Source of the DNA: Spirochaetota bacterium
GTDB taxonomy: Bacteria > Spirochaetota > UBA4802 > UB4802
NCBI GenBank assembly: GCA_040756435.1
Contig: JBFLZD010000037.1
Location: 1 to 36,270, forward strand
Direction of reading: 5' to 3'
DNA length: 36,270 nucleotides
Program-made: the position numbers and the translations under genes
Shown: in pieces, positions 1,604-9,398 of the stretch
How positions within the stretch are numbered: the stretch's first letter is position 1
How the letters are laid out: every line of letters begins with the position of its first letter
The notes under the pieces: generated by a model
The model's database searches: none
What the model was told of the DNA's origin: nothing
The model's input: only the letters and a program-made list of their open reading frames with translations

Positions 1604-2680
1604 ATGAAAAAATTTTTTACAGTCAGTTTTTCCAAACACTTCCCACTATTGATAATAGTAACTATCTCATTTTGTATAATTGCAGTAAGCTTTATAACAA
1701 TTAGAACTATTTCCCGGATCTATACAACCTCACTTGATTATGCACACAGAGCAACCATTGAACATATTGAATCCATGAGCATGGTACTATATAATTTTTT
1801 AAATAAAGCAAATATTGACAACAATACTCATGAAGATAAACTATTTATGGCTGTTAAAAACAATATCTCAGTGTATACCGCTTATATTGTGAAGCCAACT
1901 GATGATGACAGGAACTATACGGTAACAACAGTTATTAAAGGAAAACCACAGATAAAAAATTTAACCCGTGTAGATACATCACAGGAGTTCTTAATACGCA
2001 AAGGTCTTGCGTATGTTACCATTAATCCGGCAATAGAAAAACAAGGCACCATTACCTATATAGAAAGTTATATTCCGCTTCATGGTAATAAAAAAACACA
2101 GTGTTTAATTATACAGTGGCTTGCACCCAATATTGCAATCTTACAACAAAAACATGATGCACTTATAAAAACATTAATGCAAACTATTGCCATCGTTATT
2201 GCCACAACCATTATTATTATTGTTGGTATATCAATCATTCAGTCCTACCGCACAAAGTCACTTATACAGGAACTATCGCACAGTATTCAAAGCATTGCAA
2301 CGGGCACTTTAGACATTTCCCTTAATGACAGCATTGATAATGAACTCAAAACTATCGCCACATCATTTAACAGCCTTGTGGAAAAGATGAAACACAGTGA
2401 CCAGATGTTACACACAATTAAAGAAGAAACACTTACAGACATTTTTAAAAAAGGTGTTGGATTGCTGAAAGAAGGGAAGCTGGATGAAGCCCTGGCTTGT
2501 TTTACTGTGACCATACTGTATAAACCTCAAAGCTTTGCAAGTTATTTTAATGCTGGAGTGTGTTTAGCAAAAAAAAGGCAGTTTCATGATGCACTACAAT
2601 ACTTTGAAAATGCCAGAGAACTAAACCCTGACAATGAACTTGTCTTGCGCTATATTGAAAAAATAAAAGCAATACAATAA
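1604..2680 (+). CDS. Membrane HAMP-TPR protein
   Basis: 358 residues. Transmembrane helix 1 is at about 13-33, an extracytoplasmic domain of about 155 residues follows, then helix 2 at about 192-213, a HAMP linker at about 214-268, and a C-terminal TPR pair at about 282-352 (FKKGVGLLKEGKLDEAL and FNAGVCLAKKRQFHDAL). There is no kinase, cyclase, methyl-accepting or receiver domain. An extracytoplasmic signal would thus be passed to a TPR protein-interaction module. The gene lies 15 bases after a soluble receiver-kinase gene, and together they could form a split sensor; this is inference from adjacency. Two copies of the dispersed GCGATAGT word lie inside it (2272-2279 and 2351-2358, both on the antisense strand). 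Confidence 0.8.
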   Translation: MKKFFTVSFSKHFPLLIIVTISFCIIAVSFITIRTISRIYTTSLDYAHRATIEHIESMSMVLYNFLNKANIDNNTHEDKLFMAVKNNISVYTAYIVKPTDDDRNYTVTTVIKGKPQIKNLTRVDTSQEFLIRKGLAYVTINPAIEKQGTITYIESYIPLHGNKKTQCLIIQWLAPNIAILQQKHDALIKTLMQTIAIVIATTIIIIVGISIIQSYRTKSLIQELSHSIQSIATGTLDISLNDSIDNELKTIATSFNSLVEKMKHSDQMLHTIKEETLTDIFKKGVGLLKEGKLDEALACFTVTILYKPQSFASYFNAGVCLAKKRQFHDALQYFENARELNPDNELVLRYIEKIKAIQ

Positions 2681-2693
2681 TACTTTGCAGTAA

Positions 2694-4487
2694 ATGAAAA
2701 ACCTTCTTGAACAGAAAATAAAGAACCTGCCATTAAAACCCGGTGTATATCTTTTTATTAATCAAAAAAAAGAGATTATCTATATTGGCAAAGCTTCATC
2801 ATTAAAGAAACGGGTTGCTTCGTACTTTCAGAAAAATTTAGATGCAAAAACACGTGTACTTGTTATGCATATAACTGATATTGACTATATTGTTACTCAA
2901 AGTGAAATTGAAGCCCTGCTATTAGAAAGCTCATTAATAAAGAAACACAAACCAAAATATAACATACAGCAGAAAGATGATAAGCGTTTTCCGTACATTG
3001 CTATTACGCTGCATGAAAAATTCCCGCGGGTGATTTTTACTCGCAGGATTTTTCATAATGGCGATAGATACTATGGACCCTACACTGATGCCCATGCTGC
3101 ACGAAAGACAGTGGCACTGCTCAATAAAACATTTAAACTAAAAACATGCACCAAAGATATACCCTTAAAGCCGCATGAAAGGCCATGTCTTAATCATCAG
3201 ATGGGACGATGTCAGGGTGTATGTACCGGTATTGTTACTGAAGATGAATATCGCAGCGTGATAGACACTGTAATGCAATTTTTGGATGGCACTATTGACC
3301 CGGTGCTTGAAAATCTTACGGCGCTTATGAATTCATATTCACAGGCAATGCGTTTTGAAAGCGCAGCTCAGGTACGCGACATGATATTTGACATTCAGAA
3401 GATGCTGCAAACACAGCATGTTGTCACACCATTAGGGCAAAATCAGGATTATATTGGCATTACCACCCACAAGGATGAAGCGTACATTCTGATTTTCCAG
3501 TTCAGGCATGGCAGCCTGACAGGCAAACGTATCTTTGTGTATAATAATGCTGAGTACACCAGCCGCTCTTCACTTATTGCACAGTTTATTGTTGAATACT
3601 ATGCTACCAATGAACCACCACAAACCATTGTCATTCCTGACATGATTGAAGACAGGAATATAGTTGAAGAGTATTTAAGCTCTAAAACCTCACAGCCTGT
3701 ACACACCATTACTCCCAGAACTGACCATGAAAAAGCTGTTATGCAAATGCTTCATAAGAATTTAGATCTGGCCATAGCTCAAAAGATTGCTCCAGGCTGG
3801 CAAAAAGCTCTATTTGAACTACAGGAAGTGTTAAAACTCCCAGCACTTCCCATGGATATAGAATGTTTTGATATATCAAACATTCAAGGCGCTTTTTCTG
3901 TTGCCTCTATGGTGCATTTTACTGACGGGATGCCAAACAAAAAGGAATACCGACGCTACCGCATCCGCGCCTATTCCAGGCCAGACGATCCCGGAATGAT
4001 TCACGAGGTTGTGGGAAGGCGCTTGCAACACCTTTTAAATGAAGGATTACCCCTTCCTGACCTGCTTGTCATTGATGGCGGAAAGGGGCAACTTACCCGT
4101 GCCCGTGAGGTGATGGAAGCGTTAGAGTGCTCTGTCCCCGTTATAGCACTTGCAAAACGGTTAGAAGAAATTCACCTCCCACAGGGCAACCCCCTGCAAC
4201 TTCCTAAGACATCACCTGCATTGAAACTACTGCAGGCCATCCGTGATGAAGCTCATCGCTTTGCTATAACCTATCACCGCAACCTTCGTGACAGGCAAAT
4301 GACTGCGTCTGTGCTTGATTATATAAGCGGTGTTGGTCCTCATTACAAAAAAAAGCTATTGCAAAGCTTTGACACCATAGAACACATCAAACAATCAAAT
4401 GCAGAAACTATTGCACAAAAAGCAAAGATCCCTGTAACAGTTGCTCAAAAGATCTATGATTTTTTTCACAATGAGGAAAGCAATTAA
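2694..4487 (+). CDS. uvrC: Excinuclease ABC subunit C
   Basis: Makes the two incisions of nucleotide excision repair together with UvrB. The 597-residue length is normal. The N-terminal GIY-YIG nuclease is clear (PGVYLF, then IIYIGKASSLKKRV). A cysteine cluster at about 152-178 (CTKD, RPCL, GRCQGVC) matches the iron-sulfur-binding cysteines described for UvrC. A UVR helical hairpin (AAQVRDMIFDIQKML) binds UvrB. The C-terminal RNase H-like nuclease has IECFDIS and VIDGGKGQL, with a helix-hairpin-helix at the end (ISGVGPHYKKKLL). It starts 13 bases after the HAMP-TPR gene, so it is probably co-transcribed with the signalling pair although unrelated in function. uvrA and uvrB are not in the window. 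Confidence 0.97.
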   Translation: MKNLLEQKIKNLPLKPGVYLFINQKKEIIYIGKASSLKKRVASYFQKNLDAKTRVLVMHITDIDYIVTQSEIEALLLESSLIKKHKPKYNIQQKDDKRFPYIAITLHEKFPRVIFTRRIFHNGDRYYGPYTDAHAARKTVALLNKTFKLKTCTKDIPLKPHERPCLNHQMGRCQGVCTGIVTEDEYRSVIDTVMQFLDGTIDPVLENLTALMNSYSQAMRFESAAQVRDMIFDIQKMLQTQHVVTPLGQNQDYIGITTHKDEAYILIFQFRHGSLTGKRIFVYNNAEYTSRSSLIAQFIVEYYATNEPPQTIVIPDMIEDRNIVEEYLSSKTSQPVHTITPRTDHEKAVMQMLHKNLDLAIAQKIAPGWQKALFELQEVLKLPALPMDIECFDISNIQGAFSVASMVHFTDGMPNKKEYRRYRIRAYSRPDDPGMIHEVVGRRLQHLLNEGLPLPDLLVIDGGKGQLTRAREVMEALECSVPVIALAKRLEEIHLPQGNPLQLPKTSPALKLLQAIRDEAHRFAITYHRNLRDRQMTASVLDYISGVGPHYKKKLLQSFDTIEHIKQSNAETIAQKAKIPVTVAQKIYDFFHNEESN

Positions 4488-7088: not shown

Positions 7089-7117
7089 TTGACTTTTTCC
7101 TATCAATTCACTAAATT
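7089..7117 (+). promoter_or_regulatory. Probable promoter of the AAA/DUF4143 ATPase gene
   Basis: TTGACT (7089-7094), a 17-base spacer and TAAATT (7112-7117) give a reasonable sigma-70-type match. The -10 hexamer directly abuts the first ATTCAC half-site of the double inverted repeat, so a bound protein would block it. A further TATAAT lies at the corresponding place in each repeat unit (7117-7122 and 7145-7150). Confidence 0.45.
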
Positions 7118-7169
7118 ATAATAAAATATTGTGAATAGATTCACTATAATTTACATATATTTGGTGAAT
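7106..7169 (+). promoter_or_regulatory. Tandem pair of 31-bp inverted repeats (candidate double operator)
   Basis: ATTCAC-N19-GTGAAT occurs twice, at 7106-7136 and 7139-7169, two bases apart and in 33-bp phase, which is about three helical turns. The inner eight bases on the left (ATTCACTA) are identical in both units. The second unit ends three bases before the start codon at 7172 and its GTGAAT overlaps the apparent Shine-Dalgarno word GGTGA. This is the layout of a repressor operator that controls the following gene. Confidence 0.6.
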
Positions 7170-7171
7170 AA

Positions 7172-8293
7172 ATGGTATTAAAACGCACTATTCAGGATCA
7201 AATTGAAAAATTTTTATTCAAAAACAAAATAATTCTTATTTATGGTGCCCGACAGGTTGGTAAAACTACTCTGGTTAAATCAATAATGCAAAAATATCAG
7301 GATAGTGCACTGTACCTCAATTGTGATGAACCTGATATAAGAAATTTACTTCACAATAGAACATCCACAGAACTAAAATATATCATTGGGCAGAAAAAAT
7401 TAGTAATAATTGATGAAGCACAGATGGTGAAAGATATAGGAGTTACACTAAAGCTACTCATAGATAATTTTCCGGAAATTCAAATCATAGCTACGGGTTC
7501 ATCATCATTTGAATTAGCCAGCACTATATCACAACCCTTAACAGGCAGAAAAATTGAATTCAGACTATTCCCTTTTTCAATACAAGAATTGCACTCTATT
7601 TATTCCCGCTTGGAGATGGACCGTCTACTGCCACAATTTATGATATATGGTATGTATCCTGATATAGTACTGAACAAGGAAAATACTATAATACTTTTAA
7701 AAAATCTTGCTTTTAGTTACTCATACAAAGATGTGCTGCAATATCAGCAGATAAAAAATCCCGAAATTCTTGAAAAGCTATTACAGGCATTAGCTTTGCA
7801 AATTAGCAATGAAGTATCGTATAATGAATTATCTTCTTTGCTTGGTATTGATAAAAACACAGTAGCAAACTACATTAGAATACTGGAACAAGCATTTATC
7901 ATCTTTAAACTACCTCCATTAAGCCGTAACTTGCGGAATGAAATAAAAAAACTAAAAAAAATATATTTCTGGGATACTGGCATACGGAATGCATTAATTA
8001 ATAATTTTAATTCACTTGAATTGAGAACGGATACAGGGGCATTATGGGAAAACTTCTTTATTGCAGAAAGACTTAAATTTTTATATAACTCAATGGCAAA
8101 TAAAAACATATATTTCTGGCGAACTCAGCAAAAACATGAAATTGATTATGTTGAAGAAGAAAATGGCCAATTTGATGCATTTGAAATTAAATGGAATAAA
8201 CAAAAGGTGAAAATTCCATCAATATTCTTAGAAAATTACCCTGTAGCTCACCAGTATTGTATCAACAGGCAAAACTATATAGATCATATGTAA
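7172..8293 (+). CDS. AAA family ATPase with C-terminal DUF4143 domain
   Basis: 373 residues. An N-terminal AAA_14-type P-loop ATPase has Walker A YGARQVGKTT at about 23-32 and Walker B LVIIDEAQ at about 78-85, with a sensor-like ATGSSSFEL further on. The C-terminal half is DUF4143, including a winged-helix-like stretch (LLGIDKNTVANYIRILEQAFIIFKLPP) and a terminal EIDYVEEENGQFDAFEIKW, which has the spacing of a PD-(D/E)XK-like fold. The family is widespread, often mobile and functionally obscure. It is not an essential housekeeping type. It stands alone, behind a doubled inverted repeat. A truncated relative lies at 22281-22484, so the family has been present here at least twice. Confidence 0.88.
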   Translation: MVLKRTIQDQIEKFLFKNKIILIYGARQVGKTTLVKSIMQKYQDSALYLNCDEPDIRNLLHNRTSTELKYIIGQKKLVIIDEAQMVKDIGVTLKLLIDNFPEIQIIATGSSSFELASTISQPLTGRKIEFRLFPFSIQELHSIYSRLEMDRLLPQFMIYGMYPDIVLNKENTIILLKNLAFSYSYKDVLQYQQIKNPEILEKLLQALALQISNEVSYNELSSLLGIDKNTVANYIRILEQAFIIFKLPPLSRNLRNEIKKLKKIYFWDTGIRNALINNFNSLELRTDTGALWENFFIAERLKFLYNSMANKNIYFWRTQQKHEIDYVEEENGQFDAFEIKWNKQKVKIPSIFLENYPVAHQYCINRQNYIDHM

Positions 8294-9206: not shown

Positions 9207-9326
9207 ATAGATGTACCATCTAAAAAAGGGTGGCGATAGTTACTGGTAAGAAATACCGTATGCACAATAAAATTTTTGTATCACTGACTTCTATTGTGTG
9301 CGCAATCGTTTACATAGAAAAATATG

Positions 9327-9398
9327 CGCTCTCCCCGGGAATCGAACCCAGACGCACGGCTCCGGAGGCCGACGCTCTATCCATTGAGCTAGGAGAGC
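9327..9398 (-). tRNA. tRNA-Arg (anticodon CCG)
   Basis: On the minus strand the acceptor arms GCTCTCC (9398-9392) and GGAGAGC (9334-9328) pair fully. The D arm is GCTC/GAGC, the anticodon loop CTCCGGA gives CCG, and the T arm CTGGG-TTCGATT-CCCGG is intact. The anticodon region resembles other bacterial tRNA-Arg(CCG). The first pair of the anticodon stem is a T-T mismatch. The discriminator is G and CCA is not encoded. No integrase or duplicated tRNA end is seen nearby. Confidence 0.92.

Follow-up and report, generated by a model that had tools for sequence, protein, structure and literature searches.

A doubled inverted repeat upstream of a DUF4143 ATPase gene as a probable private operator read by the ATPase itself

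We analysed a stretch of 36,270 nucleotides from the genome of a Spirochaetota bacterium (GCA_040756435.1, contig JBFLZD010000037.1; the whole stretch is called the window here), in which a doubled inverted repeat lies directly before the gene of an AAA_14/DUF4143 ATPase (Table 1). The repeat, ATTCAC-N19-GTGAAT, is present in two exact copies that are separated by a 2-bp gap and lie 33 bp apart from start to start, giving an array of half-sites in the order F-R-F-R with a period of 33 bp, where F is ATTCAC and R is GTGAAT. The array overlaps a promoter-like pair, covering its -10-like element and the probable transcription start, and it reaches into the GGTG purine stretch ahead of the ATG at 7172. 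The analysis described below indicates that the doubled repeat is very probably a private operator of the ATPase gene, read by the winged-helix domain of the ATPase itself.

Table 1. Coordinates of the operator array, the ATPase gene and its parts in the window.
Feature	Position	Strand	Details
First palindrome of operator array	7106..7136	+	F1 ATTCAC 7106-7111, R1 GTGAAT 7131-7136
Second palindrome of operator array	7139..7169	+	F2 ATTCAC 7139-7144, R2 GTGAAT 7164-7169; R2 overlaps GGTG before the start codon
Promoter-like pair	7089..7117	+	-35 TTGACT 7089-7094, -10-like TAAATT 7112-7117, spacer 17; 9/12 in a consensus scan, which alone is no evidence of function
AAA_14/DUF4143 ATPase gene, 373 aa, PADLOC PDC-S01	7172..8293	+	PF13173 E 8.2e-34, PF13635 E 5.4e-46; PDLC04789 E 1.8e-155, residues 1-372
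AAA_14 ATPase domain, residues 18-140	7223..7591	+	Pfam; G25, R27, G30, K31, D81 and E82 invariant in 81 homologues
Predicted winged-helix domain, residues ~197-266	7760..7969	+	AlphaFold2: helices 197-209, 217-224, 228-240; strands 244-247, 262-266
Predicted recognition helix, residues 228-240	7853..7891	+	AlphaFold2 model; N229 codon 7856-7858; residue 229 covaries most with operator base 6
PD-(D/E)XK-like domain, residues 288-340	8033..8191	+	E293, D325, E338, K340; conservation and a separate C-terminal model

A preliminary description of this DNA had reported the doubling with identical spacing and its overlap with the probable promoter and ribosome-binding site, and both observations were confirmed to the letter. 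It had also called the precision unusual, which holds for the exact doubling and not for the loose single pattern. The ATTCAC array is the sole case in the window of any 6-mer in an equal-spaced F-R-F-R order, and none of 300 dinucleotide shuffles produced one; when the 120 bp upstream of the gene were shuffled 8000 times, its array score was never reached. The loose pattern (up to two mismatches), by contrast, was at chance level in the window (4 against 2.7 expected). The single 31-mer has one more exact match in the 3.6-Mb genome, within an open reading frame (0.42 expected), and the doubled site is unique there even when 3 of 24 mismatches are allowed. The wide scatter over unrelated loci, which the preliminary description had named as a sign against control of the ATPase, was therefore not seen.

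Related genes share the layout of the array. Across eighty homologues (47-66% identity) taken from named genomes in a wide range of phyla, a similar arrangement of repeats was visible at a glance with other letters, and close homologues carry an F-R-F-R half-site array with a 32- or 33-bp period upstream of the start. We compared a first set of 117 upstream regions (-100 to +20, start codons picked by rule) with 255 control genes from the same loci, after dropping L018 and L019 (no homologous start) and L097 and L116 (less than 100 bp upstream). Inverted repeats at p<=0.05 were found in 66 of 117 regions versus 37 of 255 controls, and the combined inverted- and direct-repeat score reached this level in 75 versus 40. 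In 57 of 117 regions, against 12 of 255 controls, the best direct repeat had a distance of 32 or 33 bp. Moreover, a 9-mer (up to one mismatch) was repeated at exactly 32 bp in 49 of the 117, where shuffles gave an expectation of 2.5, compared with 5 of 255 controls (4.5 expected). An array fit at p<=0.01 (100 shuffles per locus, so that the smallest p is 0.0099) was obtained for 67 of 117 regions and 6 of 255 controls, with 60 of 85 close and 7 of 32 distant homologues among the former. Two of the six control matches turned out to be DUF4143 genes themselves, namely L009, a neighbouring paralogue, and a further copy located behind the L072 gene. The array score had been designed after L001-L124 were seen, and L125-L214, fetched later, served as a replication set, from which L158 (no start) and six duplicates were dropped. 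In this set the same threshold was passed by 28 of 36 close homologues, 7 of 47 distant ones and 1 of 102 controls. Away from the promoter, arrays at p<=0.01 were rare in close homologues: 4 of 120 downstream of the stop codon, 0 of 121 in the coding sequence and 5 of 114 at -320 to -200.

The preliminary description had proposed comparing upstream regions of homologues for the same pattern. The comparison upheld the repeats and their 32/33-bp spacing; the literal ATTCAC/GTGAAT letters were not found in homologues as a conserved signal, the letters being private and the geometry alone common. A 32-bp array universal in DUF4143 genes was also ruled out by the low array counts of the distant clades (7/32 and 7/47). 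These clades mostly have one private palindrome, with inverted repeats at p<=0.05 in 21 of 32 regions of the first set and in 31 of 47 of the replication set, versus 6 of 102 controls.

Next we asked what reads the half-sites. Among the 121 proteins considered (two lacked enough upstream sequence), only arrays with z>=3 entered this analysis, which left 87. Their half-sites have the common form A[AT]TC-x6-x7-N-AAAT. They were aligned from seed words chosen after viewing the arrays and with no protein information, hold-out loci being included on the DNA side; two short sequences (L074, L107) were dropped from the alignment A3. We found that the half-site letters vary by gene but track the recognition helix of the gene's own protein. 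When the excess mutual information of 373 protein columns and 14 motif positions was ranked, residue 229 with base 6 came first and residue 227 with base 5 second, and residue 229 stands in second place in the predicted recognition helix. Lysine at 229 goes with C at base 6 (28/31), asparagine with A (8/8), glutamate with G (10/12) and valine with A (4/4), while arginine goes with C in 4 of 5 cases, base 5 being A in 4 of 5. The window gene, with N229 and ATTCAC, is as this code predicts. Asparagine with A, lysine with the G opposite C and glutamate with the C opposite G are contacts well known from protein-DNA recognition.

The association held in several further comparisons. For pairs of proteins at 62-99% identity, base 6 differed in 4 of 58 with the same residue 229 and in 28 of 44 with a different one. 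Across 43 independent pairs from a tree built without the helix, the Fisher p was 5.6e-4, and no column of the 373 ranked above 229 for base 6 or above 227 for base 5. Comparing upstream regions simply by their similarity gave too much noise to tell the domains apart, and array profiles were used instead; in the partial Mantel test the observed value was reached by 2 of 300 permutations for the recognition helix, 295 of 300 for the ATPase domain and 37 of 300 for the nuclease part. In the hold-out set the code was right in 13 of 13 cases for lysine, asparagine and glutamate, and over all residues in 17 of 28, compared with 12 of 28 by nearest relative and 8 of 28 by commonest base. Later examples, judged by eye, also fitted: a Desulfosarcina gene (L216; glutamate, TCG), a contig of a faecal phage collection (L224; lysine, TCC) and the second copy behind L072 (K229, half-sites CTCC). 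Since residues 227 and 229, with which the half-sites covary, sit at the predicted recognition helix, the ATPase itself is the likely reader, which supports, at the level of sequence, the earlier suggestion that the gene is controlled by its own winged-helix-like DUF4143 region. Both marks of an autogenous operator, a position upstream of the predicted reader's own gene and covariation between reader and site, are present.

An AlphaFold2 model built with 81 homologues (mean predicted local distance difference test score 92, predicted template modelling score 0.91) has, in order, the ATPase, a helical part, the winged-helix domain and a C-terminal alpha/beta domain; Pfam places the DUF4143 domain at residues 186-342. 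A sequence search with the window protein gave no relative in the PDB. The top structural neighbours of residues 1-277 were 2qen (Z 17.4, root-mean-square deviation 3.1, 251 aligned residues) and 2fna (Z 16.5, 3.4, 253), and NLR proteins, Apaf-1 and CED-4 ranked after them. The architecture of STAND NTPases was found in full, with a P-loop ATPase, Walker A and B motifs, a helical bundle and a winged-helix domain, the Walker residues being invariant in 81 sequences, and by the structural neighbours of its model the window protein is a STAND-type ATPase. When the C-terminal part was modelled alone, its leading neighbours were mostly PD-(D/E)XK nucleases (Can2, VRR_NUC, McrC, Hjc and EcoRV; Z 4.7-7.1). 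Z values below 8 are by themselves weak for this assignment, and the neighbour list agrees with PMC12988326. E293 and D325 are invariant in the 81 sequences, and E338 and K340 are conserved in at least 90%. By modelled fold and residues the domain is a member of the PD-(D/E)XK superfamily, with putative nuclease activity.

The arrays hold a fixed position relative to promoter elements. At 26 loci with exactly one TAnnTTTG at -40 to -14, the array dyads were phase-locked to this box, with R 0.75 at period 16 (0 of 5000 permutations); period 14 also gives R 0.68, and period 15.5 R 0.81. For TTGAC[AT] (21 loci) the dyad phase gave R 0.57 (p 0.001). Such fixed phases tie the arrays to promoters. 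The window array stretches over the -10 region through the ribosome-binding site, and its occupancy should therefore repress the gene.

Together, the geometry, uniqueness and covariation suggest that the protein reads its own promoter. Beyond this, we infer that the protein physically binds the array, and likewise the stoichiometry, the repression, a possible role of ATP and why the control exists. The four half-sites form two head-to-head pairs, the second 33 bp (about three helical turns) after the first, and would be taken by two dimers or a tetramer. The occupied array would then repress the ATPase gene, a form of negative autoregulation. The likely reason for such control would be dosage, in that a potentially harmful STAND-type nuclease is kept scarce until needed, and a second likely reason would be insulation from paralogues in the same genome.

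Several observations weigh against this interpretation or narrow it. An array at p<=0.01 was lacking in 25 of the 85 close homologues of the first set and in 8 of the 36 of the replication set, and the distant plasmid copies L219, L220 and L222 had neither a significant palindrome nor a significant array. The code itself is incomplete: glutamine at 229 is mixed at base 6 (A2, C2, G5 and T2 of 11), base 7 had no clean reader in the tree-pair test, and the three lysine exceptions include a relative of the window gene (L014; 56% identity, ATTCTC with T at base 6). In addition, at loci having a TAnnTTTG box the array centre is often about 47 bp upstream of it, where activation is as possible as repression.

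Private sites are also found within the genome of the window, which has ten DUF4143 places (eleven Pfam matches) whose upstream repeats differ from place to place. Five of the ten had arrays at p<=0.01 (L001, L006, L008, L009 and L010) and eight had inverted repeats at p<=0.05. The arrays at L006, L008 and L010 also have the 32-bp period, L009 is preceded by GACTATTTTC-N10-GAAAATAGTC, 2 bp, GACTTTTT...AAAAAAGTC, and single palindromes precede L002, L004 and L007. L004 was significant by inverted repeat only, and L003 and L005 had no significant repeat by inverted-repeat, direct-repeat or array score. In a second genome (G309), L125 and L157 both have K229 with TCC, and this shared class means that insulation between paralogues is not strict. 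As a separate observation, L006 and L007, which both have palindromes ahead of them, read QVCYD where others read ExK, the ExK lysine being missing in the alignment; their nuclease site may thus be dead. Tandem DUF4143 genes, each with its own array, occur at L072 (5321-6442) and at L008/L009 (G000 C61), and a protein-blind array scan drew both cases from the control genes.

The neighbours of the ATPase gene in the window encode a MarC protein, a serA-like dehydrogenase and an SBF transporter. The divergent serA-like gene has a strong promoter-like pair of its own (TTGACA-17-TATTAT, 11/12; 7003-6975, minus strand) about 100 bp from the operator array, and a tRNA-Arg (ccg) lies downstream of the transporter gene (9326-9398, minus strand). 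In a relative of the same genus (G001) a remnant of the window gene, L018 (C55, ~1438-1822), has 87% identity over 385 bp and has lost both ends. The SBF-transporter and tRNA neighbours beside it are those of the window gene; there was no clean excision, and neither ATTCAC nor GTGAAT is left in this locus. This broken remnant at the same place indicates that the gene can be lost.

Relatives were also seen in 528 plasmid records (171 Acinetobacter, 70 Rhizobium and 20 Thermus) and in 22 phage-collection records, mostly faecal contigs. The upstream array of L135, from the same phylum as the window (G202), is that of the Treponema saccharophilum plasmid pTS1 (L215), which makes a spirochaete origin of the window probable. 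Among distant plasmid copies, inverted repeats were found for L218 (Thermus; p 0.03) and L221 (Agrobacterium; p 0.05). L218, on plasmid pTT27 of Thermus thermophilus HB27 (2486-3706), lies between insertion sequence elements and has the upstream palindrome TGCCATCTC-N5-GAGATGGCA. A DUF4143 gene of pTT27, TT_P0211, which may be L218, is listed in PMC4406477 as 6.6-fold up in cells carrying plasmid DNA.

Other explanations of the repeats have to be set against these data. Repeats that are the terminal inverted repeats of a mobile element, or a homing or target site of the nuclease domain, would fit the scattered occurrence of the gene among phyla, its presence in 528 plasmid records and the PD-(D/E)XK-like domain that it encodes. 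However, no matching array follows the stop codon (the 4 of 120 given above), as terminal inverted repeats would demand, the arrays are phased to promoter elements, and the gene in the same-genus relative decays to a fragment beside the same neighbours rather than being cleanly excised. We regard this explanation as very unlikely, although a role as a cleavage site may exist on top of the operator role. Most bacterial operators are read in trans, and another DNA-binding protein of the host could in principle read the site and control the ATPase gene. Yet across many phyla the letters of the half-sites track residues 227 and 229 of the ATPase more closely than its other columns; no DNA-binding regulator is encoded among the window neighbours, and a doubled site that is unique in the genome leaves no regulon. 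A reader in trans is therefore, in our judgement, decidedly unlikely.

That the palindromes work as RNA hairpins in the mRNA leader is most unlikely. Inverted repeats can fold, and R2 of the window overlaps the GGTG before the start codon; at the 26 TAnnTTTG loci, however, most arrays are centred upstream of the box and are thus presumably outside the transcript, and neither the 32/33-bp direct repeats nor the recognition-helix code has a role in a hairpin. Chance repeats in AT-rich DNA would explain the loose pattern of the window, and inverted-repeat scores are often high in AT-rich upstream regions. Against this stand the window and upstream shuffles (0/300 and 0/8000), the control genes and the replication set, which refute chance for the set as a whole, and we give this explanation hardly any credit.

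A private operator read by the ATPase would give a molecular handle on PDC-S01, whose function could be approached through its regulation. According to PMC12988326 and PMC13356809, PDC-S01 ranks fourth in abundance among prokaryotic defence systems, with 29,494 in Bacteria and 9,986 in Archaea; in rumen genomes no single locus is more frequent (10,358), and most candidates of this kind still await validation. The preliminary description had called these ATPases widespread and without known function, which is right experimentally but passes over their listing in PADLOC as a defence candidate. For the window protein phage defence may be the role, by an annotation that rests on association. Our results suggest that the members of this common family, candidates for phage defence, each recognise and control their own gene. 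Through the residue-base code the DNA bound by each protein can be predicted from the protein sequence, and the private operators would make up sets of related autoregulators with different specificities. If true, a STAND protein has a winged-helix domain that reads individual DNA letters, a point relevant to how the corresponding domain of NLR proteins and Apaf-1 arose. A more speculative extension, which we hold to be doubtful, is that this domain, a regulatory module in the NLR and Apaf-1 relatives, is a sequence-specific and re-programmable DNA reader that serves as a trip-wire. The private 32-bp operator would then be the resting place of an immune ATPase-nuclease. If the protein lost its hold on its own promoter, for example because phage factors changed DNA, transcription or ATP, expression would rise and the nuclease would at the same time be set free.

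In the literature searched (bioRxiv and most subscription journals being outside its scope), we found no description of an operator for the AAA_14/DUF4143 family, and nothing on DUF4143 beyond one expression table. The archaeal ATPases SSO1545 (2fna) and PAB2304 (2qen), which are STAND NTPases, likewise have an ATPase followed by a winged-helix domain; in the window-type protein this second domain has a base-reading code, and a PD-(D/E)XK-like domain comes after it. We presume MNS to be the clade name of these STAND relatives. Controller (C) proteins of restriction-modification systems regulate themselves through a few doubled symmetric operators (C-boxes) before their gene, and the window system would resemble them in both respects. 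They are separate small regulators, whereas in the present case regulation appears to lie with the ATPase-nuclease itself; a controller system of this kind was ruled out for the window, where the neighbours of the gene include no separate C protein and no restriction-modification genes, the predicted reader being the 373-aa ATPase. The window protein matches the PDC-S01 model PDLC04789 over its full length, and PMC12988326 describes an ATPase fused to a PD-(D/E)XK member, but its available text does not mention an operator, autoregulation or a recognition code for PDC-S01. The NB-ARC region of Rx1 binds DNA, reported as bending and melting, with no private operator mentioned in the available text of PMC4599002. 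IniR, whose ATPase domain is SSO1545-like, is described in PMC5760070 as acting on the iniBAC promoter; it differs in having a separate C-terminal DNA-binding domain and in acting on another operon. Finally, RptR represses a defence-island promoter via repeated short sites, as stated in PMC12255303. RptR, a small protein of its own, has a single conserved site (TAGCTA), whereas in the DUF4143 arrays the site differs for each gene.
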